From Cyclobacteriaceae bacterium (GTDB taxonomy: Bacteria; Bacteroidota; Bacteroidia; Cytophagales; Cyclobacteriaceae), in the NCBI GenBank assembly GCA_025055435.1, contig JANWWN010000025.1, positions 1 through 42,520 of the forward strand: DNA of 42,520 nucleotides, read 5' to 3'. The translations under genes and the position numbers were made by a program. Each line of letters begins with the position of its first letter. Within the stretch, counting starts at the first letter, position 1. The notes beneath the pieces are model-generated. The model searched no databases. It saw only the letters and a list, made by a program, of their open reading frames with translations, and was not told the DNA's origin. This document shows positions 7,696 to 42,391 of this stretch, piece by piece.

Positions 7696-7698
7696 GCA

Positions 7699-10098: not shown

Positions 10099-10181
10099 AT
10101 CAAATGCGATTAAAGGCGTTCGGGCAAATATCCGAATCTTGAAGTATTTCTCAGGAGGCGGTTTCTAAATTGATTGTTTAA

Positions 10182-10210
10182 TGCAAACGATTTCGCAAAC
10201 GATCGCGTGC
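10182..10210. promoter_or_regulatory. Candidate LacI-family operator(s) in the GH31/SusC divergent region
   Basis: Two copies of GCAAACGAT start at 10183 and 10195, 12 bp apart. The second copy forms an imperfect palindrome GCAAACGATCGCGTGC (10195-10210) centred on CGATCG. The GCAAACG half-site matches those at 28281-28316 and 32682-32692. It lies 20 bp upstream of the susC -33 box and next to a possible GH31 -7 box, so one regulator could control both operons. Binding is inferred. Confidence 0.55.
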
Positions 10211-10217
10211 AAAATTA
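10210..10217 (-). promoter_or_regulatory. Possible -7 box of the GH31/transporter operon
   Basis: On the minus strand this reads TAATTTTG, an exact TAnnTTTG. No good -33 box is found upstream, and the leader would be about 105 nt. Transcription would start inside the operator-like repeats, which suits repression by a LacI-type protein. Weak evidence. Confidence 0.3.
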
Positions 10218-10229
10218 TCTTAACAGTTG

Positions 10230-10259
10230 TTTGGAAATACTTGCCCTTCTGTAAATTTC
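10230..10259 (+). promoter_or_regulatory. Candidate promoter of the susC operon
   Basis: TTTG at 10230-10233 and TAAATTTC at 10252-10259 (one mismatch to TAnnTTTG) are separated by 18 bp, the expected Bacteroidota spacing. The susC ATG lies 40 bp downstream. Confidence 0.5.
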
Positions 10260-10299
10260 CGACTCGACAAGATTTTATTCTGTAAACAAAATTTAAACT

Positions 10300-13200: not shown

Positions 13201-13308
13201 ATGATTACCAAGTACTCAGGTATCGATCCGGAAATTGCAAACGGCATCGATAACAATCTGTATCCGCGTCCGCGCGTGTTTCTGTTTGGTGTCAACTTAA
13301 CTTATTAA
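10300..13308 (+). CDS. SusC-family TonB-dependent outer-membrane transporter
   Basis: This 1002-residue outer-membrane transporter has a signal peptide (residues 1-26, ending LSTGLLAQ) and an N-terminal carboxypeptidase-regulatory-like domain (about 28-105). A TonB-box region follows (SLEEVVVIGYGQVEKKDL). The plug domain includes the SusC signatures IRIRGGSSVNASNDPLIVVD and LKDASATAIYGARASNGVII, and a long beta barrel ends in an aromatic-terminated strand (GVNLTY). It imports oligosaccharides captured by the SusD lipoprotein, driven by TonB. The neighbours (SusD, SusE/F-like binder, GH13 amylase, divergent GH31) indicate maltodextrin as substrate. SusD follows within about 30 bp. The ATG at 10300 gives an ideal signal peptide. 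Orthology to Bacteroides thetaiotaomicron susC itself is not claimed. Confidence 0.95.
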   Translation: MRIFYKKVHLATLVLLVSLSTGLLAQSRTVSGRVLSSDDGAPVPGVNVLEKGTNNGVVTDSDGRFSIRVGGPNSVLVFSFVGYATQEVAVGNQTTIDVTLQVQVSSLEEVVVIGYGQVEKKDLTGSIVSVNQASFNKGVMASPQDLLVGKVAGVVVTQGSGAPGSGAQIRIRGGSSVNASNDPLIVVDGFPLDNSGVAGMSNSLSTINPNDIETITVLKDASATAIYGARASNGVIIITTKKGAVGKPTLNYNAQVSLSTLARKAEVLTGDEYRDLIQGLVGNYGIDAAAASKLGNENTDWQDEVFRNAVSTDHLLSLSGSTKNIPYRVSYGFTDQQGILKTTSMQRHSFNINVSPTLLNDNLRINAGIKGMHTRHNFGDEGAIGSAVSFDPTQPVRNGNTRWGGYFTWTIDPNDPNSDASAIAPRNPVARLELTDNRSKVFRYIANLEADYRFSFLPELRAHLNMGIDHSKSEGFNNVSPLAPWTSELGSRTDYTGENQSRLLDLYLNYSKILNDHKIDFTAGYSYQSFQRDGSNFSRSFDGSVYYDYEVTQDGDTVARKFIPNPNYLISFFGRANYNYKGKYLVTATLRTDGSSRFSEDNRWGLFPAVAVAWRLKSENFLADARSLSDLKLRLGYGVTGQQDVGGAYPYLPVYVLSTPTAQYQFGNTFYQTFRPSAYDASFKWEETITYNAGVDFGLFSDRITASVDYYFRESRDLINTIPIPAGSNFNNFLTTNIGNLENRGVEVTLNAKAVKTNTLTWDIGFNLSHNKNKITKLTATDDPNYQGINIGGISGGVGNTIQNNNVGFPQNSFFVFQQIYDANGRPIEGLYVDRTGNGGNVVSNQLNKYHYKQPAPIVLMGFTSMLTYKNFDFFMAGRVSLGNYVYNNGASNTFYQAAFNNNTVTFNNLRRFIYDSGFASAQYWSDFYVENGSFFKMDNMSLGYTTSQLFTQKLKARFSFTVQNAFMITKYSGIDPEIANGIDNNLYPRPRVFLFGVNLTY

Positions 13309-13336
13309 TGATTGTTTCATGAACAAAGGAATTTCT

Positions 13337-14902
13337 ATGATACGCCTTATCTGTAAAACGGGATTTTTTACCCTGGCGCTGTTGATGACAGCCTGCCTGG
13401 GCGACCTCGATCCAAAGGATCTCGGTCCGAATGTGCTAAACGCATCCAACGTTTACCGCACGAAAGAAGATTTTAAACGCGGTTTGGCTAAACTCTATGC
13501 ATCGTTTGTGCTAAGCGGTCAGCAGGGCCCGGTTGGACAAAATGATATTGCAGGGATTGATGAAGGCTTTGGTGTGTACCTGCGGGCTTACTGGTATTGC
13601 CAGGAACTAACGACCGATGAAGCCGTGATTTCCTGGAATGACCAGACCATAAAAGATTTTCATTGGCACACCTGGACACCCAGCGATGTGTTCATATCAG
13701 CCATGTACGCCCGTATTATGTACACGGTTGCCATTGCCAATGAATTTATCCGCGCATCGGCAAATAACACTGATCCGGATATTCAGAAGTTTCACGCCGA
13801 AGCCCGCTTTATCCGTGCGCTTGCTTACTATCATGCCATTGACCTGTTTGGCAATCCGCCTTTTGTCACCGAAGCCGACAGGCCCGGTTCATACTTTCCC
13901 CGGCAGATTTCCAGAAGTGATTTATTCGATTACATTGAGTCGGAATTGATTGACATTGAAGATGATTTGGGTAATCCGAAGTTTGAATACGGCCGGGCAG
14001 ATAAAGCCGCAGCTTGGATGTTACAGGCCAAGTTATATCTGAATGCGGAAGTGTATAAGGGCACGCCCAAATACACCGAATGCATTACTGCACTAAACAA
14101 GATTTTCACTTCCGGCGCGTACACCCTGGCCTCCAACTACCGCCATAATTTCGTGGCCGACAATCACAACAGTCCGGAAATTATACTCGCCTTTAATCAC
14201 GATGGCCAGCGTACCCAAACCTATGGCGGCATGGTCTTTATTATTCATGCATCAATAGGAGGCAGCATGAACTCAATGGCAACATTTGGCGTGCAAAACC
14301 CGTGGGCCGGAATTCGCACCACGAAACAGTTTGTTAACAAGTTCAGTGACATTAGTGGCAGCACCGACACCCGGGCATTGTTCCATACCGATGGACAGTC
14401 GCTGGAAATCAATGATATTGGTGTATTTACCGATGGTTATGCCATTACCAAATTCAGAAACCGTACGTTGGCCGATAATCTGCCGCCCAATCCACATCCT
14501 GATTTTGTGGATACCGATTATCCGATGTTCCGCCTGGCCGATGCTTACCTGATGTACGCTGAAGCCGTGTTACGCGGAGGTACCGGTGGTTCATTGTCTC
14601 AGGCACTGACCTATGTTAATCAGATCCGTCAGCGTGCTTATGGCGACACTTCGGGTAACATCACGCCGGCCATGTTAAACCTGGATTTTATTCTGGATGA
14701 ACGTGCGCGCGAGTTGTATTGGGAAGGACACCGCAGAACCGACCTGATTCGCTTCGGCAAATTTACCGGTGGGTCATACCTGTGGGCATGGAAAGGTAAT
14801 GTTAAGGAAGGTACATCCACACCGGCTTTCCGTGATTTGTTTCCTATTCCTGCCGCTGATATGGCTGCTAATCCTACTTTGACGCAAAACCCGGGTTATT
14901 GA
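13337..14902 (+). CDS. SusD/RagB-family glycan-binding lipoprotein
   Basis: This 521-residue outer-membrane lipoprotein pairs with SusC as the lid of the transporter. The signal peptide ends at LLMTAC (Cys20). SusD hallmarks are the early segment AKLYASFVLSGQQG, the TPR-helix stretch HAEARFIRALAYYHAIDLFG with nearby NPPFVTE, a YMMYAEAVLRGG-like helix (YLMYAEAVLRGG), the DERARELYWEGHRRTDLIRF motif and the C-terminal LFPIPAADMAANPTLTQNPG. The last is an almost universal SusD ending. The open frame begins at an ATG at 13319. The ATG at 13337 is preferred because AAAGGA lies 6 bp ahead and it gives a standard-length lipoprotein signal; either is possible. It is part of the susC operon, with the SusE-like gene 14 bp downstream. 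Confidence 0.95.
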   Translation: MIRLICKTGFFTLALLMTACLGDLDPKDLGPNVLNASNVYRTKEDFKRGLAKLYASFVLSGQQGPVGQNDIAGIDEGFGVYLRAYWYCQELTTDEAVISWNDQTIKDFHWHTWTPSDVFISAMYARIMYTVAIANEFIRASANNTDPDIQKFHAEARFIRALAYYHAIDLFGNPPFVTEADRPGSYFPRQISRSDLFDYIESELIDIEDDLGNPKFEYGRADKAAAWMLQAKLYLNAEVYKGTPKYTECITALNKIFTSGAYTLASNYRHNFVADNHNSPEIILAFNHDGQRTQTYGGMVFIIHASIGGSMNSMATFGVQNPWAGIRTTKQFVNKFSDISGSTDTRALFHTDGQSLEINDIGVFTDGYAITKFRNRTLADNLPPNPHPDFVDTDYPMFRLADAYLMYAEAVLRGGTGGSLSQALTYVNQIRQRAYGDTSGNITPAMLNLDFILDERARELYWEGHRRTDLIRFGKFTGGSYLWAWKGNVKEGTSTPAFRDLFPIPAADMAANPTLTQNPGY

Positions 14903-14916
14903 TACTTTTAATTTGA

Positions 14917-16344
14917 ATGGATATGCTAACAAATAAATCTCTGATTAAAATATTTTCGACTGCGCTCCTGGCACTATTGATTCTTTCGGTAGTGTCGTGC
15001 GAAGAAGATGGCGAGAAAGTTACGCTGCCTGATGCCGAAACATTTGCTGCTCCTGAACTTTTGTTTGAACCCGGAGCGCCTAAGGTTCTTCTTCCTGAGG
15101 ATGATGCGGATTTGTTGTACGAAATTCCTTGGAAGAATGCGAACTACGGTATTAATGTTTCCATTCGATATGAAGTGGAAATTTCGGATAGCGAAGATTT
15201 TGACGGTGCCGTTCGAACAATTGCGGCCATCGAAGGTCGGGGGCCTGGAGAAACGCGAACGGCACGCGTCACCGTAAAGCAAATGAACGATGCTATGCTG
15301 GCCCTGGGATTACCAGCTTTTACGCAGCATGAAATTTATTTCAGGGTAAAATCAACGGTCAATGGAACTACACTCGAACCGCTATATTCTAACGTTGTAA
15401 GTGCCCTCATCACCGGATACAGAATCAGTGAATGTGGTAATTTCTGCTCGGTAGGGATTATAGGAAGTGCCACTCCAGGCGGATGGTCTACGGATACCGA
15501 TATGCGTCTTCTCGACCCTTCGGGAACAGATCGCTCAACCTGGACCGTTACCATCTACCTTACGGGCGGGCAGCACGTAAAGTTCAGGGCAATGGATTCC
15601 TGGGACACGAACTGGGGGAGCACGGCCTTTCCTACAGGCACCGGTACCCAAAACGGCCCGGATATTCCGATACCCACATCAGGATACTATAATGTAACTT
15701 TTAATGATGAAACGGGAGCTTACAGGTTTGTTCTTATTACAAGCTCGTATTCTCAAATTGGAATCATAGGAACGGGTGTAGGGGGCTGGTCGGACAGCAA
15801 CGAAAAATTTCTTACCCGTAGCGGTCCGACTGGTGCTGCTGCGCATATTTGGACCGGTACCATCAACTTTGTTGCGGGTGAGGTGAAATTCCGGGCCAAT
15901 GCCTCCTGGAGTACCAATTGGGGTGGTACCCGCTATCCTAGCGGATATGGTATTAATGATGGTCCTAACATCACTATTCCAACCGGCGGAACATACTTTG
16001 TTTACTTTAATTCAGCTTCCGGCGAGTACCTAATCGGCTCTGTTGCCAACAGCGCGCCTTATGGCACGGTAGGTATGATCGGGCCAGCAACACCCAATGG
16101 GTGGGGAGGACCTGATACTGACCTGATTAAAAACCCGGCTAATCCGTACCGGTACTCCAGGGTGTTTACTTTAGTTGCGGGTGACCTGAAATTCAGAGCT
16201 GATGACAGCTGGACGGTTAACTGGGGTGCCTCCTCATTCCCCGGAGGTATAGGAGTACAGGATGGCGCCAACATCCCGGCTCAGGCCGGAACCTATTTTA
16301 TAACCTTCAATTCGCTGACAGGCGAGTATTATTTCCTTAAGTAA
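14917..16344 (+). CDS. SusE/SusF-like outer-membrane glycan-binding lipoprotein with three tandem binding modules
   Basis: This 475-residue lipoprotein (ILSVVSC, Cys28) begins with an N-terminal Ig/FN3-like SusE domain (about 38-165). Three homologous repeats follow at about 178-272, 280-374 and 383-475. Each repeat starts with a G(I/M)IG strand and a GW motif. Each then carries KFRA..SW..NWG (for example KFRAMDSWDTNWGS), a (F/Y)P.G.G segment and a closing FN..(S/T)GEY-like strand. The conserved Trp and Lys/Arg in the repeats are typical starch-binding residues of SusE/SusF modules. The protein should sit on the cell surface and retain alpha-glucan near SusC/SusD. B. theta SusE has two such modules and SusF three, so this combines a SusE-like place in the operon with SusF-like module number. 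A strong terminator follows. Confidence 0.9.
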   Translation: MDMLTNKSLIKIFSTALLALLILSVVSCEEDGEKVTLPDAETFAAPELLFEPGAPKVLLPEDDADLLYEIPWKNANYGINVSIRYEVEISDSEDFDGAVRTIAAIEGRGPGETRTARVTVKQMNDAMLALGLPAFTQHEIYFRVKSTVNGTTLEPLYSNVVSALITGYRISECGNFCSVGIIGSATPGGWSTDTDMRLLDPSGTDRSTWTVTIYLTGGQHVKFRAMDSWDTNWGSTAFPTGTGTQNGPDIPIPTSGYYNVTFNDETGAYRFVLITSSYSQIGIIGTGVGGWSDSNEKFLTRSGPTGAAAHIWTGTINFVAGEVKFRANASWSTNWGGTRYPSGYGINDGPNITIPTGGTYFVYFNSASGEYLIGSVANSAPYGTVGMIGPATPNGWGGPDTDLIKNPANPYRYSRVFTLVAGDLKFRADDSWTVNWGASSFPGGIGVQDGANIPAQAGTYFITFNSLTGEYYFLK

Positions 16345-16359
16345 TAGCTTGAATGAATT

Positions 16360-16398
16360 AAAGCCGGCATTGGTTTTTCTTATGCCGGCTTTGTTTTT
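16360..16398 (+). terminator. Rho-independent terminator between the SusE-like gene and the GH13 amylase
   Basis: An 11-bp perfect stem (AAAGCCGGCAT at 16360-16370; ATGCCGGCTTT at 16382-16392), an 11-nt loop and a GTTTTT tail lie 15 bp after the SusE-like stop. Because the same-strand amylase starts 11 bp beyond the tail with no recognisable promoter between, this probably attenuates rather than ends the transcript. Confidence 0.88.
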
Positions 16399-16409
16399 AA
16401 ATTGAGAAT

Positions 16410-19238
16410 ATGCGCAGAGTAATCATCTGGTTGATTTTTTATTTTCCGGCAACGGTATGGGCGCAACGCGTAGTCCTTGATCCGGTAATTTCACCTGTCT
16501 TTTTTCGACACAACGATGTGATAACGGTAACCTATGATGTTACCGGAACTCCGCTGGCTTCATTAAATAACGCATGGGCATGGGTATGGATACCCGGCCC
16601 AAATATCAATTCCCGCTACAACATCAATCCGGCTACTTCGGCAGCCGACCCGGCCAAATTCACAAAAAGCATCAATGCCGGACGAACAATCTTTACACTA
16701 TCGTTTAAGCCAACCGATTTTTTCACGCAAAATATAACTTCATATAATCAACTGGGGATTTTGCTGAAAGCCAACGACTGGCCCGCCGGCCAGACAAGTG
16801 ATTACCTGGCTACATTCTGGGATGGTAACTTTCGGATAGCGCTTACTTCTCCGCTAAGCCGACCCCTCTTTGTAAACACTAACGATAATTTTACGATTTC
16901 TGCCGAAATACCCGTTAACGGAAGCTTTCAACTTTTCATCAACGGTACGCTTGTAAGTTCACCTGCTAATGTCAGGAATTTGTCGTATACGCATACTGTA
17001 ACGGAAACAGCCGGCTACGGAACGGTTGTGTTGCGTGCATCGCAGGGTACAAACTTCGATCAGGTTGAATTTCAGTATTTGCTCCGCACAGGCAGCCCAA
17101 CTCAGTCACGGCCTCCCGGAATTATTCCGGGTATAAATTATTCCCCGGATCCAACCCGTGTTACTTTGTGTCTTCAGGCACCGGGAAAAAATTCAGTTTA
17201 TGTGCGGGGAGACTTCAGTAACTGGGACGTTCTTCCGCAAAACCTGTTGAAAAAAGACGGAGAATTTTTCTGGATTGAACTCACCGGGCTTACGCCAGGG
17301 CAGGAGTATGCCTTTCAGTACCTTGTAAACGAAACGCTTTGGATTGCCGACCCGTATGCGGATAAAATTCTGGATCCGGATGACCAGTACATTCCTTCAA
17401 CCACATATCCTGGTTTAAAACCATATCCGGCAAAGGCGCGTTCTGCTTTTTGGTATTTTAACCGTGTATCGGTTTTTCAAACTGCACAAACACCCTATGT
17501 ATGGCAAAGCACCGGCTATCAGCGCCCGGATAAAAAGAAGCTGGTGATTTATGAACTGCTGATTCGTGATTTTTTTGATTCCGGCAACCGCAATTATCAA
17601 AACCTCATCGATACGCTTTCCTACTTTAAGCGGCTGGGCATTAATGCCATTGAACTCATGCCCGTCATGGAATTCAATGGTAATGAAGGATGGGGCTATA
17701 ACCCTACCTTTATGTTTGCGCCCGATAAATATTACGGCACAAAAAACAAACTCAAGGAATTCATCGATAAATGTCATCAGAATAACATCGCGGTAATACT
17801 CGATATTGCGCTTAATCATCAGGATATTCCCAATCCGATGGCCATGCTTGATTTTGATTTTACGAATTATACGCCAACCGCGAACAACAAATGGTTTAAT
17901 GTTACAGCCCGGCATCCGTTCAATGTTTTCTATGATATGAACCACGAAAGCCCTTATACCAAAGCTTATGTGGATACGATATGCTACTACTGGCTGAATG
18001 AGTATAAAGTGGATGGCTTTCGTTTTGATTTGTCAAAAGGATTCACACAGGTAAACAGCGGCAACAATGTGGACCTGTGGTCAGCCTATGACCCTTCGCG
18101 AATTGCATTATTAAAGCGCATGGCCGATAAAATCTGGAGCCATACTCCGGATGCCATCATTATTCTGGAGCATTTTGCAGTCAATACCGAAGAAAAGGAA
18201 CTGGCTGAGTACCGGGCCAACGAAGGCAAAGGAATGTTGTTATGGGGAAATTTGCACTACGCATACAATCAGAACACCATGGGCTACTCCGATAACTCTT
18301 CACTCAACTGGGTGTACCATGGCACGAGAGGGTGGACTGTTCCCCATGTGGTGAGTTACATGGAAAGCCACGATGAAGAAAGGCTCATGTATAACAATAT
18401 TACCCACGGTAACGCTGCGTCAGGATACAGCACCAGGAACCGTGCCACAGCTTTGGATCGGATGCGCGGCGCAGCAACGATTTTTTATACCATTCCCGGA
18501 CCTAAAATGCTGTGGCAGTTTGGCGAACTGGGTTATGACTTTAGTATCAATCATTGTGTAAACGGCACGGTTAACAACAATTGCCGCCTGGATCCCAAGC
18601 CGGTAAAATGGGACTATCGGCAAGAGGGCTCACGATACCTGCTGTATAGGCACATTGCCGATTTAATTCGGTTGCGCAATACGTATAGTGTGTTTCACAG
18701 AGGTACTGCGACATTCTCAGGAGCCAACAATCTGCTCAAGCAACTTACGCTAAGAAATGCGCCGTACACGGCTACACCTTCATCGCCTGAACAGATGAAC
18801 GTTCACATAGTGGTAAACTTTGATGTGGTGTCACGAACGGCACAAATCAATTTTCCGCATTCGGGAACATGGTATGATTACTATTCGTTTGGTACACCTG
18901 TTTCAGTTTCCGCCCTGCCTTACACGCTGCAGCTACGACCGGGCGAGTACCGGCTGTTTACCGATGTAGAGATAAGTAATCCGTTAATCACCGAAATTCC
19001 GGAAGAGAGCAGCGAAGAGTTAGCTGTTTATCCTAACCCAACCGAAAAAGTTTTGTACATTGAAGCCAGCGAACCGGTATTGTCGGTTTCGGCAACATCC
19101 GTTAACGGAAAAGTATATCAACCACTTCGTACGGGCGATGCAGAATGGAGTATCGAACAACTTCCTGCAGGGCTGTATGTGATCTCCATTTACAGATCGG
19201 GTAAGCCGGTTAAACACGTACGAATAATAAAACCCTGA
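16410..19238 (+). CDS. Secreted GH13 alpha-amylase with T9SS C-terminal sorting domain
   Basis: This 942-residue protein has a signal peptide (about 1-19, ending ATVWAQ) and two N-terminal beta domains (about 20-225). A CBM48/E-set-like module follows (about 250-330, VYVRGDFSNWD), then the GH13 barrel (about 375-800). The C-terminal type A T9SS domain begins LAVYPNPTEKVLYIE and ends VKHVRIIKP. Catalytic residues are intact: region I DIALNH (Asp465), nucleophile Asp540 in GFRFDLSKG, acid/base Glu587 in ILEHF and Asp655 in MESHDEER. It should cleave internal alpha-1,4 bonds outside the cell after type IX export, feeding the neighbouring SusC/D/E. It starts just after the terminator and ends 5 bp from the convergent GH53 gene. 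Exact specificity (amylase versus pullulanase-like) cannot be set from sequence alone. Confidence 0.92.
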   Translation: MRRVIIWLIFYFPATVWAQRVVLDPVISPVFFRHNDVITVTYDVTGTPLASLNNAWAWVWIPGPNINSRYNINPATSAADPAKFTKSINAGRTIFTLSFKPTDFFTQNITSYNQLGILLKANDWPAGQTSDYLATFWDGNFRIALTSPLSRPLFVNTNDNFTISAEIPVNGSFQLFINGTLVSSPANVRNLSYTHTVTETAGYGTVVLRASQGTNFDQVEFQYLLRTGSPTQSRPPGIIPGINYSPDPTRVTLCLQAPGKNSVYVRGDFSNWDVLPQNLLKKDGEFFWIELTGLTPGQEYAFQYLVNETLWIADPYADKILDPDDQYIPSTTYPGLKPYPAKARSAFWYFNRVSVFQTAQTPYVWQSTGYQRPDKKKLVIYELLIRDFFDSGNRNYQNLIDTLSYFKRLGINAIELMPVMEFNGNEGWGYNPTFMFAPDKYYGTKNKLKEFIDKCHQNNIAVILDIALNHQDIPNPMAMLDFDFTNYTPTANNKWFNVTARHPFNVFYDMNHESPYTKAYVDTICYYWLNEYKVDGFRFDLSKGFTQVNSGNNVDLWSAYDPSRIALLKRMADKIWSHTPDAIIILEHFAVNTEEKELAEYRANEGKGMLLWGNLHYAYNQNTMGYSDNSSLNWVYHGTRGWTVPHVVSYMESHDEERLMYNNITHGNAASGYSTRNRATALDRMRGAATIFYTIPGPKMLWQFGELGYDFSINHCVNGTVNNNCRLDPKPVKWDYRQEGSRYLLYRHIADLIRLRNTYSVFHRGTATFSGANNLLKQLTLRNAPYTATPSSPEQMNVHIVVNFDVVSRTAQINFPHSGTWYDYYSFGTPVSVSALPYTLQLRPGEYRLFTDVEISNPLITEIPEESSEELAVYPNPTEKVLYIEASEPVLSVSATSVNGKVYQPLRTGDAEWSIEQLPAGLYVISIYRSGKPVKHVRIIKP

Positions 19239-32764: not shown

Positions 32765-34540
32765 ATGATTCAAAGGTTGCTGATTTTGTCGTTGTTGCTC
32801 TTTACCTGTTGTGTGCGAAACAAAGAATCCATACCTGAACTGCCTGAAGTAAATGCACCGCACAACCGCACTGTTATTTATCAAATCATGGTGAGGTTGT
32901 TTGGTAACAAGCAAACCGTAAACAAGCGTTTTGGAACCTTGGCTGAAAACGGATGCGGCAAAATGGCTGACATCAATGACGCCGCCCTTCAGGGCATTAA
33001 AGAATTGGGCGCTACCCACGTATGGTACACGGGTATCATCGAACATGCCTCCTGCACAGCCTACCCGGAATATGGTATTCAGGGTGATGACCCGGATGTG
33101 GTGAAAGGTGTGGCCGGCTCACCTTATTCCGTTCGTGATTATTACGATGTGCATCCCGACCTGGCTATTAACATTCCGAACCGGATGAAAGAATTTGAAG
33201 AACTGGTGGAACGTACACACCGGCATGGTTTAAAAGTCATAATCGATTTCGTACCCAACCATGTGGCCCGTTCATACCGTTCGGATGCAAAACCGCGCAC
33301 GGTTCGTGATTTTGGTGAAGACGATAACCGAAACCTTGCTTTTGCTCCGGCAAACAACTTTTATTATCTACCCGGCAAACGTTTTAAACCGCCCCGAACC
33401 GAATTTATTATTCCCGGGATGGACGGTGAATTTGATGAATATCCGGCCAAGGCCACAGCTAATGATGTGTTTTCACCAAATCCCTCTGTAAACGACTGGT
33501 TTGAAGCGGTTAAACTGAATTACGGTATTGACATGAATGGGGGAGAAGCTTCATTCTTCGATCCTGTGCCGGATACCTGGATTAAAATGCGCGATATTTT
33601 GATGTACTGGACAGATAAAGGAGTTGACGGTTTTCGTTGCGATGTAGCCTGGATGGTTCCCGTTCAATTCTGGAACTGGGTTATACCTCAGGTAAAATCG
33701 CGTAATCCCGATATGCTTTTCATTGCCGAAATCTATCAACCCGAATTGTACCGCGACTTTCTGAACATTGCCCGCTTTGATTTACTCTACGATAAAGTGC
33801 AACTCTACGACACATTGCGCCTGCTGATGGAAGGCAAAAGCGAAGGGCAAGCCATTGCAAGTATCCAAAACGAACTCCGGGATATCAGCAGCCGGTTGCT
33901 TCACTTCATGGAGAACCATGATGAACAACGTATCGCTTCCGAACATTTTGCGGGTAATCCATGGAAAGGAATTCCGGCTATGGTCATTTCATCAACCCTT
34001 GATAACGGAGCCATTCTCATCTACTTTGGTCAGGAAGTTGGCGAGCCGGCAACTGGCGATCCGGGCTTCCAGACTTTTGAAAAGAAAGGTGTTACCACCA
34101 AGATGGATTATTGGGCCGTACCCGAACATCAGAAATGGATGAATGGCGGAGCGTTTGATGGCGGGGGTTTGTCGGAAGATCAGAAACAGCTTCGGCAAAC
34201 CTATGGCCGTCTCCTCAAACTATCCGCCACGTCACCGGCTCTTCTTTACGGTGAATTTGCTGACCTGACAAAATTTAACTTCGCTAAAAAAAATATTTCC
34301 AATCGCATTGTAGCATATTTGCGTTATAACCAATCCGAAAAACTGTTGATCATTGCCGGCTTTAACGACCGTACCGAAAATGCAGTTGTTGAATTTCCTG
34401 TTCATCTGTTAAGTGAATTAAAAACCGAATCTGAAACGGTTCGGCTGAAGGATATGATGAGTGAAACCGAAATGGAAATAACTGATGCGTTGGGCATAGC
34501 GATACGACCTTTCGGATATTATCTCTTTAAAGTACAGTAA
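32765..34540 (+). CDS. GH13 alpha-amylase family enzyme, predicted lipoprotein
   Basis: This 591-residue GH13 enzyme has an N-terminal signal of lipoprotein type (LLILSLLLFTCC, Cys15 or Cys16). Its catalytic set is complete: region I DFVPNH (Asp161), nucleophile Asp293 in GVDGFRCDVAWM, acid/base Glu322 in LFIAEIYQ and Asp386 in FMENHDEQR. A C-terminal beta domain ends GYYLFKVQ. As a lipoprotein it may occupy the SusG-like position, cutting alpha-glucan at the outer membrane, complementing the T9SS-secreted amylase at 16410. It has its own promoter and an operator-like palindrome upstream, and is followed by 105 bp before the TreS-maltokinase operon. Exact product specificity is unknown. Confidence 0.9.
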   Translation: MIQRLLILSLLLFTCCVRNKESIPELPEVNAPHNRTVIYQIMVRLFGNKQTVNKRFGTLAENGCGKMADINDAALQGIKELGATHVWYTGIIEHASCTAYPEYGIQGDDPDVVKGVAGSPYSVRDYYDVHPDLAINIPNRMKEFEELVERTHRHGLKVIIDFVPNHVARSYRSDAKPRTVRDFGEDDNRNLAFAPANNFYYLPGKRFKPPRTEFIIPGMDGEFDEYPAKATANDVFSPNPSVNDWFEAVKLNYGIDMNGGEASFFDPVPDTWIKMRDILMYWTDKGVDGFRCDVAWMVPVQFWNWVIPQVKSRNPDMLFIAEIYQPELYRDFLNIARFDLLYDKVQLYDTLRLLMEGKSEGQAIASIQNELRDISSRLLHFMENHDEQRIASEHFAGNPWKGIPAMVISSTLDNGAILIYFGQEVGEPATGDPGFQTFEKKGVTTKMDYWAVPEHQKWMNGGAFDGGGLSEDQKQLRQTYGRLLKLSATSPALLYGEFADLTKFNFAKKNISNRIVAYLRYNQSEKLLIIAGFNDRTENAVVEFPVHLLSELKTESETVRLKDMMSETEMEITDALGIAIRPFGYYLFKVQ

Positions 34541-34598
34541 CACTGCAAAAATTAACCTGTGTTGAAAGAAACGGCGTTCGTTGGTTATAACTGGATTT

Positions 34599-34617
34599 AT
34601 CATTAAAAACTAATGAT
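34599..34617. repeat. Short inverted repeat before the TreS-maltokinase operon
   Basis: ATCATTA (34599-34605) and TAATGAT (34611-34617) form a perfect 7-bp inverted repeat around AAAAC, 29 bp before the start codon. It could be an operator or chance. No clear TAnnTTTG promoter was found in the 105-bp gap. Confidence 0.3.
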
Positions 34618-34645
34618 GTTCGCGTAGCTTCCACGATAAACCATT

Positions 34646-37600
34646 ATGAGTAAACGTAAGTCATCTGCGATTATCGAAACGCCCTGGTTTAAAGAAGCCA
34701 TTTTCTATGAGCTTTCCGTTCGTGCTTTTTACGACAGCAATGGAGACGGCATCGGAGATTTTCGGGGATTACTTGAGAAACTGGATTATCTGGAAGACCT
34801 GGGAATTAATGTGATATGGCTTCTGCCGTTTTATCCTTCGCCTCTGCGCGATGATGGTTATGATGTTACCAACCACACCGACATCCACCCTGATTACGGA
34901 ACCCTTGCCGATTTCAAAGCCTTTCTGAAGGAAGCCCACAGAAGGAACATGCGGGTAATTACGGAACTAATCCTTAACCATACATCCGACCGGCACCCCT
35001 GGTTCATACGCGCCCGAAAAGCCAAACCCGGAAATCGTTACAGAAACTATTATGTATGGAGTGATACACCCGAAAAATACAAGGAAGCACGCGTAATTAT
35101 TCAGTCGGAAGAATCATCGAACTGGACATGGGATAACGAAGCGCGTGCGTATTATTGGCACCGGTATTTCAGCCATACCCCCGAACTGAACTACGAAAAT
35201 CCCGAAGTCCAGCTCGAAATGATGAAGGTCATTGATTTCTGGCTTAAGATGGGGGTGGACGGTTTCCGGCTCGCAGCCGTTCCGTTTCTTTATGAACAGG
35301 AAGGAACCAGCTGTGAAAACCTGCCGCAAACGCACGACTTTATCCGCAAAATCCGCAAACATATTGATACCCATTATCAGGATAAAATACTGATTGCCGA
35401 TGCCAACCTGTGGCCGGAAGATGCAGCAACCTATTTTGGAAGAGGCGATGAGTGCCACATGGTTTTCAACTATCCGCTCATGCCGCGGTTGTTCCTGAGT
35501 TTGCGAACCGAAGACAGCTACCCCATAACCGACATCATGGAACAAACTCCGGAAACGCCGGAAGGCTGCCAGTGGGCTTTGTTTTTGCGCAACCATGATG
35601 AACTCGGTTTGGAGATGGTTACCGAAGAAGAAAAAGATTACCTGCTGAAAGCTTACGCCCGCGATGCACAAACCAAATTCAATTCAGGCATACGGCGCAG
35701 ACTGGCCCCGTTGTTAAACAATGACCGCAGAAAAATTGAATTGCTGTACACCCTATTGTTTTCTCTGCCGGGCACGCCGGTTATTTACTATGGCGATGAA
35801 ATCGGTATGGGCGACAATGTTTACCTGGGAGGCCGGCACAGCGTGCGCACACCCATGCAGTGGAACATGAATATCAACGCCGGTTTTTCAAATGCCAATC
35901 CGCAACAATTGTATCTGCCGGTAATTACCGACCCGGTTTACCGATACGAATCGGTAAATGTAGCAACGCAACTGGAGAGCACTTCCTCCCTGATATGGTG
36001 GGTGCGAAACGTAATTGCCATGCGCAAACGACTTTCGCTCTTCGGCAAAGGGAAGATGAAGTTCATTTCAACCAACAACAACAAAGTGCTATGCTTTGCC
36101 CGTACCTGGGAAAAACAGCACGTAGTGGTGGTGGTAAATCTGTCGCAGTTCTCACAGGCTGCCACACTTGATTTGTCGGAGTTCCGCGGCTGCGAAGTAA
36201 CAGAAGTATTTAGTCAAAACCGCTTTCCTGGTGTAGGCCATGGTGAATACCTCATCACCCTGGGGCCGTACAGTTATTATTGGCTTCAGCTGGAGCTATC
36301 GGAAAAACCCAAAAGTACCGGCTCCGGCTCCGAACTTCCCTTGTTTGAATCGGCCCTCTCATGGGAGCGTGCCCTGCAGGAATACCAGTACCGCAGATTT
36401 ATCGAACGTAAAGCACTGCCGGCATATCTGAAAAAGTGCAAATGGTTTAACGGAAAATCAAGGCAGATTAACCGCGTGTCGGTGGACCATGTCATGCCGC
36501 TGAAGGTGGATGAAACCGTTCATTACTTACTGCTTATTGAAGTTACTTTCTTACAGAAACTGCCCGAAATCTATTTGCTGCCTATTGTGTTTGTGCCAGG
36601 CGACCGGCTTTTCGAAGAGGTTGAATATTCGCTGCAAAGCGTAATTTGTCGGGCTGATATTCAGGGGCAGTCAGGCTTCATCATGGACAGCCTGTACGAT
36701 TCCCTGTTTCGCACCTTTTTATTTAGAGCCATCGAAAACAAACAGCGCGTTGCTTTGGATACCGCTGCGCTCGAATTTAATCCAAGCGTGTTCAACAAGA
36801 TTTCTGCATTACCTCAGATTCAATCCCGCATCATCAAAACCGACCAAAGCAACACAACCGTTATTTATAACGACCAGTTCATTTTCAAATTTTATCGCCG
36901 AATGGAACGCGAAATCAACCCCGATATGGAATTGATTCGGTTCCTTTCCGAACAGACAACCTTTACCAACAGTCCGCGTTACCACGGAAGCGTGGAATTG
37001 CGCGAAAAATCAGGCAGCACCTTGACCATTGGCATGCTGCAAAATAAAATTGAGAACCAGGGCGATGCCTGGACCATGGCTACCGACTCCGTTGGCCGTT
37101 TTTTTGAGCGGGTTATTACCGGTGCCAAGCACAGCAAACTGCCACCGTTGGTGAACAAGCCAATGTTGAAATTTGAAGATGCCCCTCCGTTGATTCAGGA
37201 ATTTATCGGTCGCGGATTTTATGAGCGGGTGGTGCGGCTCGGTCAGCGAACCGCTGAAATGCATCTTGCGCTTGCCTCCGATAAAACGCGGCCAGAAATG
37301 GCTCCCGAACCCTTTACCTCCAACTACCAGCGCGCACTGTACTCTTCACTGCGTAAGCTAACCCGCGACCGATTTGCTTTGTTGCGAAATTCAAAAAGCC
37401 GGTTACCGGATGATTCCGTTCCTTTGGCTGATGACGTACTCGGATTGGAAGACACCATACTGGAGGCGTTCCGCGATGTGTACGAAACTCCCATTCAGGC
37501 GATGAAAGCCCGCATACATGGAGACTTCCATCTGGGTCGTGTACTTTTTACGGGAAATGATTTTGTAATTGCCGATTTTGAGGGCGAAACGGATATCTCA

Positions 37601-37999
37601 TTCAGCGAAAGAAGATTGAAGAGAAGTCCGTTGAAAGATATAGCCGGCATGATGCGCTCATTTCATTATGCAGCTTTTGGTAAAATACTCATGAACGAGA
37701 ACTACAGAAAACGCGACCGCGATTTTCTTGAATCATGGGCCGAACAGTGGCAGCATTATATCAGCCGTTTTTACCTGGCCGCTTATTCCGGGCGAATGGG
37801 AAAAAGCGAATGGACCGAAAGCGATGATGTGTTGCTAAGAACCTTTCTGATTGAAAAAGCCATTAACGAATTGGGATATGAACTGAGCGAGCGACCGGAT
37901 TGGACCAGTATCCCGCTGCGCGGATTGTTGTACCATATAAACCGCTACAAATCCGAAAAGGAAGAACGGGAAAAAGGTTCCAAACACAAAAACAGGTAA
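34646..37999 (+). CDS. treS: Trehalose synthase-maltokinase fusion; TreS active site degenerate
   Basis: This 1117-residue protein fuses a TreS-type GH13 domain (about 12-550) to a maltokinase/Pep2 domain (about 565-1105). The TreS part is clear by sequence ([73 protein letters not shown]). However, the nucleophile position in GFRLAAVPF is Ala210 where GFRLDAVP is expected. The acid/base position in [11 protein letters not shown] is Asp252 instead of Glu. Region I reads ELILNH (Glu107 for Asp). Asp318 is kept. The kinase half retains its catalytic motifs [12 protein letters not shown] and VIADFEGE plus [14 protein letters not shown]. Predicted role: ATP-dependent maltose to maltose-1-phosphate, with the TreS half probably inert. 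It is cytoplasmic, and first gene of an operon with glgB 1 bp downstream. Confidence 0.9.
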
Positions 38000-38000
38000 T

Positions 38001-39971
38001 ATGTCAGGCGATACTTCTTCCAAATCAGTTGCACAGCACACGGCATTCTACAGCCTGTTTACCGATTTTGATATCTATCTCTTGAAAGCGGGAAGGCATT
38101 ACCGTTTATATGAAAAACTGGGTGCACATCAGGCCACGCATCAGGGTAAAACAGGGACTTATTTTGCGGTTTGGGCTCCCAACGCCAAATCGGTATCCGT
38201 GATAGGAAATTTTAACGGCTGGCAAAAGCAACAGCATATTTTATACCCGCGTTGGGATGAATCCGGAATTTGGGAAGGCTTTCATGAAAACATTACAACT
38301 GGCGAATTGTACAAATACGCCATTCTGACGCAGGATGGGCAATGGCTTGAAAAAGCCGATCCGTTTGCCTTTTATTGCGAAACCCCGCCACGCACGGCTT
38401 CCATCATCTGGCCGGTAGATGGTTATAAATGGAACGATGAAGACTGGATGAACAGGCGAAAGGAAAAGAAATGGCACAAACAACCGGTTTCCGTTTACGA
38501 AGTTCATCTCGGCTCCTGGCGCAGGGTACCCGCTGAAGGAAACCGTCCGCTTACGTATCGCGAACTGGCCATAGAGCTGGTAAACTATGTTAAGGAAATG
38601 GGTTTTACCCATGTGGAATTCATGCCTGTAATGGAACATCCGTTTTACGGATCATGGGGTTACCAAACCACAGGTTATTATGCACCCACAAGCCGATACG
38701 GTAGTCCGCAGGATTTTATGCACCTCATCGATTCCCTCCACCAGGCCGGCATTGGAGTCATACTCGATTGGGTGCCATCGCATTATCCGGGTGACGAACA
38801 TGGTTTGTTCCGGTTTGACGGAACTCATCTGTACGAACATGCCGACCCGCGCAAAGGATTCCATCCCGATTGGAAAAGTTACATTTTCAACTACGGCAGA
38901 AATGAGGTCCGGTCGTTTTTAATCAGCAGCGCCCTGTTCTGGCTGGACAAATACCATGTTGATGCGTTGCGTGTGGACGCGGTAGCCAGCATGCTTTATC
39001 TGGACTACTCAAGGAAAGAAGGCGAGTGGATACCGAACTGGTACGGAGGCAGGGAAAATCTGGAAGCCATATCGTTTTTAAAAGAATTCAATGAGGCGGT
39101 TTACGGTCAATATCCCGATGTATTTACGGTAGCTGAGGAATCAACCGCCTGGCCCGGCGTTTCGAAACCAACGTATCAGGGTGGATTAGGCTTCGGACAG
39201 AAATGGATGATGGGCTGGATGCACGACACGTTGCAATATTTCAAACGCGACCCGATTTACCGTTCGTATCATCAGGATGAAATCACCTTTAGTCTGGTGT
39301 ATGCCTTTACGGAAAACTTCATGCTACCGTTATCGCATGACGAAGTGGTTTATGGAAAAGGCTCGTTGCTTTCGCGCATGCCCGGAGATGAATGGCGTAA
39401 GTTTGCCAACCTCAGGCTTTTATTCGCATACATGTTTAGCCACCCCGGAACCAAACTTTTGTTCATGGGTGGCGAATTTGCACAATCAGCCGAATGGAAT
39501 CATGATCAAAGCCTGGACTGGCATTTGCTACAATGGGATTACCACCAGGGCATTCAAAGATTAATTGTTGAACTCAACCGCCTGTATCGAAGTGAGCGAG
39601 CTTTATTCATCTGTCAGTTTGAGCCCGCCGGATTTGAATGGGTAGATTACTCTGACCGGCAAAACTGCGTGATTGCCTACAGGCGTAAATCCGACCAACC
39701 CAACGAACTGATACAGGTAATTTGCAATTTTACCCCCGAAGTGAGGTACTCATATCGAATCGGTGTACCTTTCAACGGGCAATGGCAGGAAGTTTTTAAC
39801 TCAGATGATAAAATATATGGCGGAAGTGGTGTGCGCAACGAAGGCCGGTTGATTGCCGAAGAGATACCTTGTCATGGAAGTGCATATTCCATAACCCTGA
39901 CCTTGCCGCCATTAGCAGCTATTTACCTTAAGAATATACAAGAGCCTGAAACGGGGCACAATTCTAATTAG
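38001..39971 (+). CDS. glgB: 1,4-alpha-glucan branching enzyme
   Basis: This 656-residue GlgB has an N-terminal CBM48 (about 30-135, [10 protein letters not shown]). The GH13 barrel carries the branching-enzyme signatures [32 protein letters not shown] and the nucleophile Asp326 in [16 protein letters not shown]. The acid/base is Glu379 in [12 protein letters not shown], and Asp447 is in [14 protein letters not shown]-terminal beta domain follows. All catalytic residues are intact. It creates alpha-1,6 branches in glycogen in the cytoplasm. It starts 1 bp after the TreS-maltokinase stop and ends 5 bp before the GH57 gene, so the three are surely co-transcribed. With maltokinase this recalls the GlgE-type glycogen pathway, although no GlgE is in the window. 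Confidence 0.96.
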
Positions 39972-39976
39972 AAGGT

Positions 39977-42391
39977 ATGGAGGGGAGCAATAACCGGAAA
40001 TTCATTTGCATTCATGGACACTTTTATCAGCCACCACGTGAAAACGCCTGGCTTGAAGTAATTGAGTGGCAGGAATCGGCACACCCTTACCACGACTGGA
40101 ATGAGCGCATATCGGCAGAATGTTATGCACCGAATGCGGCATCGAGAATACTCGATGAAAACAGTGTCATCAAAAACATTACCAACAATTATACCCGCAT
40201 CAGCTTCAACTTCGGACCTACGCTATTATCGTGGATGGAGGAAAATGACCGGGAGACATACGAAGCAATCGTACAGGCCGATAAGGAAAGCGCCCGACTT
40301 TTTGGCGGTCATGGTTCGGCCCTGGCGCAGGTATATAACCACATGATTATGCCACTGGCCAACCGCAGGGACAAGGAAACGCAAATCATTTGGGGTATTC
40401 GCGATTTTGAATACCGGTTTAGTCGTAAACCCGAAGGCATGTGGCTGGCCGAAACCGCAGTGGATTTGGAAACGCTCGAATTACTGGCTGACCATGGAAT
40501 AAAGTTTACCATTCTGGCGCCGCATCAGGCAAGGGCCTTTAAAAAGGAAGGAGAGGGATATTGGACCGAATTGAAAGACCGCGAAATAAATACCCGCAGG
40601 GCCTATCGGTGCCGGTTGTCCTCAGGAAAAGATATAGCAGTGTTTTTTTACAATGGTGCCATTTCGCAGGCGGTAGCTTTTAACGGACTGTTAAACAACG
40701 GGCAAAGTTTTGCCGAATCACTGATTAATTCGTTCGATGGCTCGGATGAAGCGCAACTGGTACACATCGCTACCGATGGCGAAACGTATGGTCACCATCA
40801 CAAGCATGGCGATATGGCACTTGCCTATTGTTTGGCCTACATCGAACAAAAACCGGAGGTGAGACTTACCAATTACGGTCAGTTTCTTGAAATGTTTCCC
40901 CCGCAGTATGAAGTTCAGATTGTTGAAAATTCTTCCTGGAGCTGTGTGCATGGTGTTGAACGTTGGCGCGACAACTGCGGATGCAACACAGGAAAGCCCG
41001 GTTTTCAGCAACTATGGAGAAAACCTTTACGCGAAGCCCTTGACTGGCTGCGCGATACCCTCGCTGAATGTTTTCAACAGGCCGCCTCGCAACTTTTGGC
41101 TGATCCTTGGAAAGCCCGCAACGATTATATCGCAGTCATTTTAAAGCGCAATGAAGAAAGTGTTAAAAAATTTATCCGTGAACACGCGGTTAAAACAGCC
41201 GAACCTTCCCGTATCCTTCGGTTGATGGAGATGCAACGCAATGCCATGCTGATGTTTACCAGTTGCGGATGGTTTTTCGATGAAATATCCGGTATTGAAA
41301 CCACACAGATTTTGCAATATGCCTGCCGGGCCATTCAGTTAGCCAATCAGCTTACCGATAAAGACCTGGAACAGGAGTTCATCGGGCAACTAAGCCATGC
41401 ACCGTCCAATATTCCGCAATTCGAAAGCGGGGCGGGTGTTTATACACAGCTCGTATTACCATCGAAGGTTTCGTTGCAACGGGTAGGCATGCACTATGCA
41501 GTGGCCTCCTTATTTGAAGAAGATCCGGAGAATTTTCCTGTGTTTAATTACACCACATTTAATGAGGCCTTTTTGCGAAAGGAGGCAGGCGAACAACGCC
41601 TGGTGCTGGGTATAACGCGTATCCGGTCGAATGTAACCTGGTCGGAAAAACGATTCAGTTTTGTAGCCGTGTATATGGGCAAGCACAATATTATCGGCTC
41701 CATTTCAATCGATATGAAACCGGAGGATTTTAGCTCAATGCAGTTTCGCGTGGTAAAGGCATTCGAGGAAGCCCGTCTGGCTGATGTTATCGGTTTGTTG
41801 CAAACTTATTTCGGCCCGGAGCATTACACCATCTGGCATTTATTTAAAGATGAAAAGCGCAAGGTGCTAAATCAGATTACACGTCAAAGTCTTGCTGAAC
41901 TGGAAGAATCGTTACGCAGGGTTTACAACCGCGATTATCCGTTGGTCAACGCCCTTCGGCATAACTACATGCCCATTCCACGTGCTTACCTTACCACATT
42001 TGAATACATTTTAAATGCCGATTTGATGTCCAGTTTCCGTTCAGTAAAAATCAATCTGAAGAAAATTGAACGAATTATGCAGGAAATGGCCGCATGGAAA
42101 CTTAGCATCGAAGACCCCGAACAGGTGGCCCGCCTGGCGGGTGAACGGATATATAAAGAACTTCGCAGTATATCGGCCGAACGCAGTAATGTGAGAAGGA
42201 TAGACCGGCTAAACCGACTGTTCCCGCTGTTACGAAAGTTCAGGCTTGAACCCAACTTGTACAAAAGCCAGAACCTGTATTTCGAAATTTCGCAGCAGGA
42301 ATATAAAAACGGGAAGGACCGAAGCTCCGAATGGCAAAAGCAATTCGAGTTGCTGGGCAAAAACCTGGGCGTAAAGGTTAAATTCGGTTAA
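39977..42391 (+). CDS. GH57 family glycoside hydrolase with C-terminal DUF3536-like region
   Basis: This 804-residue cytoplasmic protein has the GH57 opening FICIHGHFYQPPREN (residues 9-23). The family motif region GGHGSALAQVYNHMI is present, then the nucleophile Glu159 in GMWLAETAVD and acid/base Asp267 in ATDGETYGHHHKHGD. The insert VERWRDNCGCNTG is also typical of this GH57 branch. Residues about 340-804 correspond to a long helical C-terminal region like DUF3536. GH57 members act on alpha-glucans as amylases, 4-alpha-glucanotransferases or branching enzymes; this branch is poorly characterised. It begins 5 bp after glgB, implying a role in glycogen trimming or debranching beside GlgB. No signal peptide is present. 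Confidence 0.88.
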   Translation: MEGSNNRKFICIHGHFYQPPRENAWLEVIEWQESAHPYHDWNERISAECYAPNAASRILDENSVIKNITNNYTRISFNFGPTLLSWMEENDRETYEAIVQADKESARLFGGHGSALAQVYNHMIMPLANRRDKETQIIWGIRDFEYRFSRKPEGMWLAETAVDLETLELLADHGIKFTILAPHQARAFKKEGEGYWTELKDREINTRRAYRCRLSSGKDIAVFFYNGAISQAVAFNGLLNNGQSFAESLINSFDGSDEAQLVHIATDGETYGHHHKHGDMALAYCLAYIEQKPEVRLTNYGQFLEMFPPQYEVQIVENSSWSCVHGVERWRDNCGCNTGKPGFQQLWRKPLREALDWLRDTLAECFQQAASQLLADPWKARNDYIAVILKRNEESVKKFIREHAVKTAEPSRILRLMEMQRNAMLMFTSCGWFFDEISGIETTQILQYACRAIQLANQLTDKDLEQEFIGQLSHAPSNIPQFESGAGVYTQLVLPSKVSLQRVGMHYAVASLFEEDPENFPVFNYTTFNEAFLRKEAGEQRLVLGITRIRSNVTWSEKRFSFVAVYMGKHNIIGSISIDMKPEDFSSMQFRVVKAFEEARLADVIGLLQTYFGPEHYTIWHLFKDEKRKVLNQITRQSLAELEESLRRVYNRDYPLVNALRHNYMPIPRAYLTTFEYILNADLMSSFRSVKINLKKIERIMQEMAAWKLSIEDPEQVARLAGERIYKELRSISAERSNVRRIDRLNRLFPLLRKFRLEPNLYKSQNLYFEISQQEYKNGKDRSSEWQKQFELLGKNLGVKVKFG

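Follow-up and report, generated by a model that had tools for sequence, protein, structure and literature searches.

A trehalose synthase-maltokinase fusion of a Cyclobacteriaceae bacterium belongs to a clade predicted to be without trehalose synthase activity

Main finding

The stretch of DNA analysed here, hereafter the window, is a complete contig (C18, 42,520 nucleotides) from the draft genome of a Cyclobacteriaceae bacterium (2.79 Mb, 100 contigs, 97.37% complete), and it carries a gene in which a trehalose synthase (TreS) is fused to a maltokinase (Mak). The TreS half is predicted to be dead, as an earlier note on this DNA had claimed, and this prediction now rests on the loss of the catalytic nucleophile across a whole clade of such fusions. 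The clade protein is a TreS homologue but is predicted not to be a trehalose synthase, and the annotation 'trehalose synthase' or TIGR02456 in this clade forecasts an activity that the protein probably lacks. In the account that I hold to be probable, with real reservations, a non-catalytic TreS body would serve the maltokinase in a GlgE pathway fed from maltose, and this pathway would have been broken in the window genome itself. The earlier note had already proposed that a dead TreS is retained as a scaffold or an activator, with maltose and not trehalose as the supply, and this is still the best reading for the clade; the note had overlooked the GlgE operon of relatives and the absence of GlgE from the window genome, where the product, maltose-1-phosphate, is without a known user.

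The TreS active site

The gene, its two halves and the residues that matter in the TreS half are the following.

34646..37999, + strand: TreS-maltokinase fusion gene, 1117 amino acids (open reading frame and profile matches)
34685..36295, + strand: TreS half, residues 14-550, GH13 barrel and C-terminal domain (TIGR02456, PF00128, PF16657)
34964..34966, + strand: Glu107 (GAA), region I, ordinary for this branch of TreS and no loss (alignment; PDB 5x7u)
35273..35275, + strand: Ala210 (GCA), replacing the catalytic nucleophile Asp (alignment; codon check)
35399..35401, + strand: Asp252 (GAT), replacing the acid/base Glu (alignment; Glu in 81/83 clade sequences)
35597..35599, + strand: Asp318, the region IV aspartate, retained (83/83 clade sequences)
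36359..37930, + strand: maltokinase half, residues 572-1095 (TIGR02457; PDB maltokinases 4o7o, 4u94, 5jy7)

The open reading frame (ORF), its coordinates and the three codons agree with what had been reported before, and the fusion is real, as both halves pass their profile cut-offs: TIGR02456 with 842.8 bits (cut-off 678.35; profile positions 2-539 of 539 covered) and TIGR02457 with 422.4 bits (cut-off 375.05). A whole-protein search of the window genome returned the fusion and two weak GH13 matches, and no second TreS-type gene. Three catalytic substitutions had been proposed, of which those at positions 210 and 252 stand, but the third does not: Glu is present at position 107 in all 41 relatives with Asp210 in an alignment of 126 ORFs, and PDB 5x7u, deposited as a trehalose synthase, reads ITELVLNH with its nucleophile Asp intact, which rules out Glu107 as a catalytic loss. 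D318, R208, H112, H317, D73 and R401, which with a few others I take to be residues of the -1 subsite, are all kept in the window protein.

A clade without the nucleophile

Homologues were drawn from 59 related genomes, 78 contig-collection loci, 295 genomes of the family and 40 further stretches. Among the 126 distinct ORFs aligned, position 210 is Asp in 41, where the next residue is always Ala, and something else in 85 (Pro 31, Ala 28, Ser 18, Gly 8); one of these 85 (L127) is a partial repeat of the window, which leaves 84 distinct nucleophile-less sequences. For full-length proteins the boundary between the two types lies between 52% and 56% identity to the window, and when 15 more places were classed by identity and then read, the distant copies had Asp in 8/8 cases and the near copies another residue in 7/7, several of the seven being loci already in the set. 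In a tree of 48 rows, thinned and with columns 210-211 removed, a single branch sets 21 nucleophile-less rows apart from 27 Asp rows with a support of 100 (Shimodaira-Hasegawa-like approximate likelihood ratio test, SH-aLRT, quick method), and the clade is recovered again in a 68-row tree of the TreS half that holds 20 outgroup rows and is rooted with distant TreS. A sample of 395 genomes from the Bacteroidota, 104 of them with a match at E 1e-120, gave 44 places outside the clade that were read; all 44 keep the Asp nucleophile, and no other nucleophile-less TreS occurs among them. Because every outgroup copy read keeps Asp, one loss early in the clade is the simplest history. The clade contains named isolates, among them Ohtaekwangia koreensis, Chryseolinea serpens, Dawidia soli, Parachryseolinea silvisoli and Chryseotalea sanaruensis.

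To judge from these trees, the nucleophile-less trait is ancestral to the whole clade, which the earlier note had overlooked although it had suggested looking for a clade defined by its three substitutions. The change at 210 does define one, while that at 252 is confined to the window and one other sequence (L082) and residue 107 is normal. The note had also reasoned that GCA lies two base changes away from an Asp codon and that one sequencing error could not explain it; the conclusion is right and the argument is not needed, since the loss of Asp210 is common to the whole clade (codons GCN, CCN, TCN and GGN), which rules out a sequencing error at this position.

Evolution of the TreS half

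Among 83 long clade sequences, D73, H112, R208, N254, R315, H317, D318 and R401 are invariant. Position 252 is Glu in 81 of them, the window and L082 having Asp, and Tyr72 is replaced by Phe in 40. Position 210 has switched between Ala, Pro, Ser and Gly 21 times, a number that 11 of 200 scored sites equal or exceed. The neighbouring position 211, Ala throughout the Asp group, holds Ser in 71 clade sequences and Asn in 11, the window being the one clade member with Ala. The pattern suggests that the nucleophile position is free except for size, and that the surrounding sugar pocket is kept. However, retention alone is not decisive: of the 231 positions that never vary in the Asp group, 169 are conserved in the clade as well and 62 have fallen below 90%, so that 9/9 pocket residues would be retained by chance with a probability of about 0.06. 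A surrogate nucleophile in the TreS half is ruled out by the type II list, in which no Asp, Glu, His or Cys has become fixed anew in the clade.

These data also bear on whether a site without its nucleophile could still do chemistry, for instance by an inverting attack of water or phosphate that uses the retained acid/base Glu. The near-universal Glu252, the eight invariant residues and the exclusively small residues at 210 would all suit such a reaction, but the repeated changes at 210 argue that its side chain has no defined role, no acidic, His or Cys residue has become newly invariant, the window and L082 carry Asp252, and the pocket is not retained clearly above background. I regard residual chemistry of this kind as improbable.

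Median omega in the clade is 0.012 for the TreS half and 0.021 for the kinase half (12 estimable of 38 pairs), and in the Asp group 0.021 and 0.042, respectively (5 of 11 pairs). The ratio of nonsynonymous divergence (dN) between TreS and kinase is 0.72 in 37 clade pairs vs. 0.33 in 6 Asp pairs with an adjacent glgE (p=0.0004), and 0.31 across all 11 Asp pairs (p=5e-6). With an omega of 0.012 and this shift in dN ratio, the TreS half is therefore still strongly constrained by purifying selection, yet about twofold relaxed relative to its kinase when compared with catalytic TreS. Neutral pseudogenisation of the TreS half throughout the clade, dragged along by a kinase that is needed, would explain the raised ratio and the 62 positions that are no longer conserved. 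However, the low omega, the invariant pocket residues, a mean pairwise identity that is higher in the TreS half (0.789) than in the kinase half (0.734) and the lack of any truncated TreS half among complete clade members make it very improbable.

The operon and the trehalose genes of relatives

Around the fusion gene the window contains the following features.

32765..34540, + strand: GH13 protein, 591 amino acids, whose start resembles that of a lipoprotein (by eye); its counterpart in the sister locus L069 immediately precedes glgE
34541..34645, no strand: 105-bp gap at the place of glgE in L069 (locus comparison)
38001..39971, + strand: GlgB branching enzyme, adjoining the fusion (PRK05402, 987 bits)
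39977..42391, + strand: GH57-DUF3536 protein, 804 amino acids (domain match)

At L069, the closest relative with 80% identity, the genes run transporter, oxidoreductase, isomerase, GH13, glgE, TreS-Mak fusion, glgB and GH57. The fusion adjoins glgE in 73 of the 74 clade loci whose upstream flank measures 1.5 kb or more, and glgB in 75/75 whose downstream flank does so; where the upstream flank is shorter (10 loci), glgE is still visible in 8, and the partial repeat of the window accounts for one of the two exceptions. In relatives, then, the fusion gene is part of a GlgE-TreS/Mak-GlgB-GH57 operon. The GH57 protein of the Pontibacter GlgE locus, which may or may not be of one family with the GH57 protein of the window, is reported to be a 4-alpha-glucanotransferase (PMC11206854).

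The genes for making trehalose differ between genomes with an Asp copy and genomes that have only a nucleophile-less copy, with the proviso that the genome counts are not phylogenetically independent. TreY passes its cut-off in 24/25 of the former vs. 0/35 of the latter, OtsA is found in 22/25 vs. 8/35 and MalQ in 9/9 vs. 0/31. Neither TreY nor OtsA, and hence neither of these routes of trehalose synthesis, was detected in 27 of the 35 genomes with only a nucleophile-less copy. Full-length GlgA was dropped as a marker, since PF08323 matches a frame of 270-340 amino acids in nearly all 40 genomes.

Two arrangements were seen in passing. Several of the genomes G111, G230, G002, G008 and G011 have TreY and MalQ matches in single frames of about 1440-1470 amino acids, both matches occurring in G111, G002, G008 and G011, which suggests a MalQ-TreY fusion there. 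In Spirosoma telluris (L105), TreS and maltokinase lie in overlapping frames (9950-11683, 578 amino acids, and 11662-13308, 549 amino acids) and not in one ORF.

Loss of GlgE and damage to the kinase

A search with PF11896 found the GlgE domain nowhere in the window genome, and in all 16 of 16 relatives of the genus. The upstream GH13 gene ends at 34540 and the fusion starts at 34646, and the 105 bp between them are where glgE lies in L069. One more clade genome (G309) is without GlgE and has the same gap in its operon; all other clade genomes searched have it. The window genome is a draft, and an artefact of assembly or sequencing was considered, both for the codons and for the absent glgE. 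However, the nucleophile is lost in dozens of independent assemblies, the named isolates included, and the gap at glgE is internal to a contig and has its like in G309, again together with kinase damage, so that an artefact is hardly credible.

In the solved maltokinase of M. vanbaalenii, the catalytic base is reported as Asp305, the Mg ligands as Gln310 and Asp322, and the Glu of the DFE motif as Glu324 (PMC4306142). The window protein has these equivalents.

37523..37525, + strand: Asp960, equivalent of the catalytic base Asp305, retained (alignment to the solved maltokinase)
37538..37540, + strand: Arg965, replacing the Mg ligand Gln310 (all 82 remaining sequences of the 83 in the clade have Gln)
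37574..37576, + strand: Asp977, equivalent of the Mg ligand Asp322, retained (alignment to the solved maltokinase)

The motifs HGDFHLG and DFEGE, from which the kinase had been taken to be preserved, are indeed present, but an intact kinase they do not make, as the very next residue after HGDFHLG is Arg965, which probably disables it. In the kinase of G309 (L160), Asp305 is replaced by Asn and Glu324 by Gln. None of the other 81 clade sequences deviates at Asp305, Gln310, Asp322 or Glu324, and the only further deviation at the seven scored kinase sites is Phe323 to Tyr in L154, from a GlgE-positive genome. Thus, among 83 clade sequences, exactly those of the two GlgE-less genomes have lost an acidic or Mg-ligand residue of the kinase. 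With the clade and the Asp group taken together, and with rows that are not independent, the kinase is damaged in 5/8 GlgE-less sequences vs. 0/22 GlgE-positive ones (p=0.0004); Asp-type copies with an adjacent glgE have an intact kinase site in 20/20 cases, and three more damaged Asp-type kinases (L026, L100, L109), scored at the locus level, have no adjacent glgE.

A mirror image of the window clade is also seen in the Bacteroidota, namely fusions with an intact TreS triad and damaged kinase motifs, e.g. HGN and DFGG or DFSG (L100, L109, L026, L027, L181 and L182; L188, L190, L194 and L217). Such damage beside an intact triad means that either half of the fusion can lose catalysis.

A Streptomyces glgE mutant is reported to suffer from maltose-1-phosphate, whereas a pep2 mutant is unaffected (PMC5042117). 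As glgE has been lost and unused maltose-1-phosphate is harmful, a working kinase would be a liability in the window genome, and the kinase damage in GlgE-less genomes fits the known toxicity. Kinase damage that accompanies the loss of GlgE in two independent lineages would be the evolutionary counterpart of the harm seen in the laboratory when maltose-1-phosphate is formed without GlgE.

Counts of substitutions point in the same direction. With L033 as outgroup, the window has 64 private changes in the kinase half against 24 in L069 (p=2e-5), and 29 against 21 in the TreS half (p=0.32). GlgB has 46 against 29 (p=0.06), and the MFS and GH57 genes differ in the opposite direction; the flanking genes show no excess comparable to that of the kinase half. 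Sites conserved in the clade have changed in the window at 16/144 positions of the kinase and 4/217 of TreS (p=0.0002), and in L160 at 21/149 and 6/218, respectively (p=6e-5).

A sterner view of the window genome is that the whole fusion is a relic that decays after the loss of glgE, its TreS half being merely not yet decayed. The absence of GlgE, the lost Mg ligand, the excess of altered conserved sites in the kinase and an acid/base residue that is changed only here and in L082 all agree with this. However, the reading frame of 1117 amino acids is intact, the TreS half has no significant excess of substitutions over its sister (27-29 vs. 21-23, with L033 and L034 as outgroups), and dN to the sister (0.089 for TreS, 0.188 for the kinase) with a saturated dS argues for purifying selection over the entire branch. 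I consider decay of the entire fusion a serious possibility, though not the likely one.

What the TreS half may do

The sequences themselves show the single loss, the conservation, the operon, the absence of GlgE and the kinase substitution; by analogy with mycobacteria the TreS half is most likely a scaffold or tuner of the kinase. In this account the TreS half would have lost its nucleophile once, early in the clade, and would since have been kept as a non-catalytic body. The working part would be the kinase, which would turn maltose into maltose-1-phosphate for use by the adjacent GlgE, the product then being branched by GlgB; the maltose would presumably come from starch or maltodextrin, not from trehalose. 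The dead half may hold or tune the kinase, as suggested by the mycobacterial TreS:Pep2 complex, and its loss of catalysis may stop maltose from leaking into trehalose. In the window genome this pathway would have broken since, with glgE missing, the Mg site damaged and the kinase half apparently evolving faster.

Several published observations are in line with such a scheme. Purified TreS is reported to favour trehalose over maltose (PMC11046441), loss of TreS had no reported growth effect in Streptomyces (PMC5042117), and a trehalose-independent route to maltose-1-phosphate is described in another bacterium (PMC8084333). In a cell that gets its maltose from maltodextrin and makes no trehalose, an active TreS would divert maltose, and losing its catalysis would cost nothing or even help. 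As a side observation, positions 6166-19238 of the window hold a starch-type utilisation cluster with a GPH-type symporter, a GH31 alpha-glucosidase and a GH13 protein with a sorting domain of the type IX secretion system (T9SS), as well as TonB-type receptor and SusD-like genes (by eye).

Alternatively, the TreS pocket could be a retained sugar-binding site, the former glycosidase having become an allosteric sensor of maltose, a maltodextrin end or maltose-1-phosphate that gates the attached kinase, and that outlives it in the two GlgE-less lineages. The TreS half is apparently no faster in the two GlgE-less lineages, which leaves room for a TreS role of its own. I would call the sensor a rather doubtful proposal.

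Points that weigh against the scaffold account

Several observations tell against a dead TreS body that serves a maltose-fed kinase, and against the link between GlgE loss and kinase damage. Elsewhere, MalQ is the characterised source of maltose, and its absence from 31/31 genomes with only a nucleophile-less copy makes the supply of maltose a weak point of the account. TreY and a second TreS copy change together 3/3 times on the clade tree, which gives a sign test p of only 0.25. Trehalase has a strong match in 21/31 of the genomes with only a nucleophile-less copy, the window's included, so it was rejected as a marker of a life free of trehalose; these genomes are not trehalose-free, and trehalose may be consumed. 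The window genome (G000) has a full-length trehalase at C46:3563-4990, whereas OtsA, TreY and a catalytic TreS were not found there.

As to the kinase, three GlgE-less fusions of the Asp type keep an intact kinase site. A direct two-by-two comparison of the halves, which asks whether the kinase accelerated more than TreS, gives no significant excess for the window (p 0.05-0.12 with five outgroups) and a mixed outcome for L160 (p 0.001-1). Over eighty-one outgroups, the median ratios of window to sister are 1.70 for the kinase and 1.38 for TreS, and an uneven kinase half is also seen in 2/11 sister pairs (L065/L089 and L088/L158), neither of which was chosen for GlgE loss.

As to the scaffold, the idea alone leaves the kept sugar pocket unexplained. 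The mycobacterial TreS had been cited as an activator of the separate maltokinase Pep2; this is borne out for M. tuberculosis, where the rise in Pep2 activity is called marked in one passage of the source and modest in another, but not for M. smegmatis, where TreS is described as essentially without effect (PMC6509496). Because the effect of TreS on the kinase is not general across mycobacteria, I can only infer the role of scaffold or activator.

Comparison with known systems

If the account is true, TreS would here be kept for a non-catalytic purpose, nature having settled whether the role of TreS in TreS:Mak is partly structural or regulatory, and the clade would mark a GlgE pathway that is fed from maltose without TreS. 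Fusions of TreS with maltokinase, the GlgE pathway and GH13 pseudoenzymes are already known, while a clade of nucleophile-less TreS, or a pseudo-TreS, was not found described in titles and abstract starts of the open-access literature, which agrees with the earlier note. Among GH13 pseudoenzymes, the plant isoamylase ISA2 is non-catalytic and a partner of an active enzyme in alpha-glucan synthesis, but it belongs to another GH13 subfamily, is a separate subunit, and has a debranching enzyme and not a kinase as its partner. The heavy chains 4F2hc and rBAT have the GH13 fold without the full catalytic machinery and are subunits of animal transporters.

The known TreS-kinase fusions of Estrella and P. 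aeruginosa have the same two-domain architecture and belong to the GlgE pathway. In the Estrella fusion both TreS and kinase are reported to be active, and the P. aeruginosa protein makes maltose-1-phosphate; the window fusion differs from them in a TreS without nucleophile and in the missing glgE. Closest to the role proposed for the clade is the mycobacterial TreS:Pep2 complex, where TreS is described as a platform for the maltokinase with an effect on its rate in one species; unlike the clade fusion, it consists of separate proteins with an active TreS, and the rate effect reported there is not general (PMC6509496).

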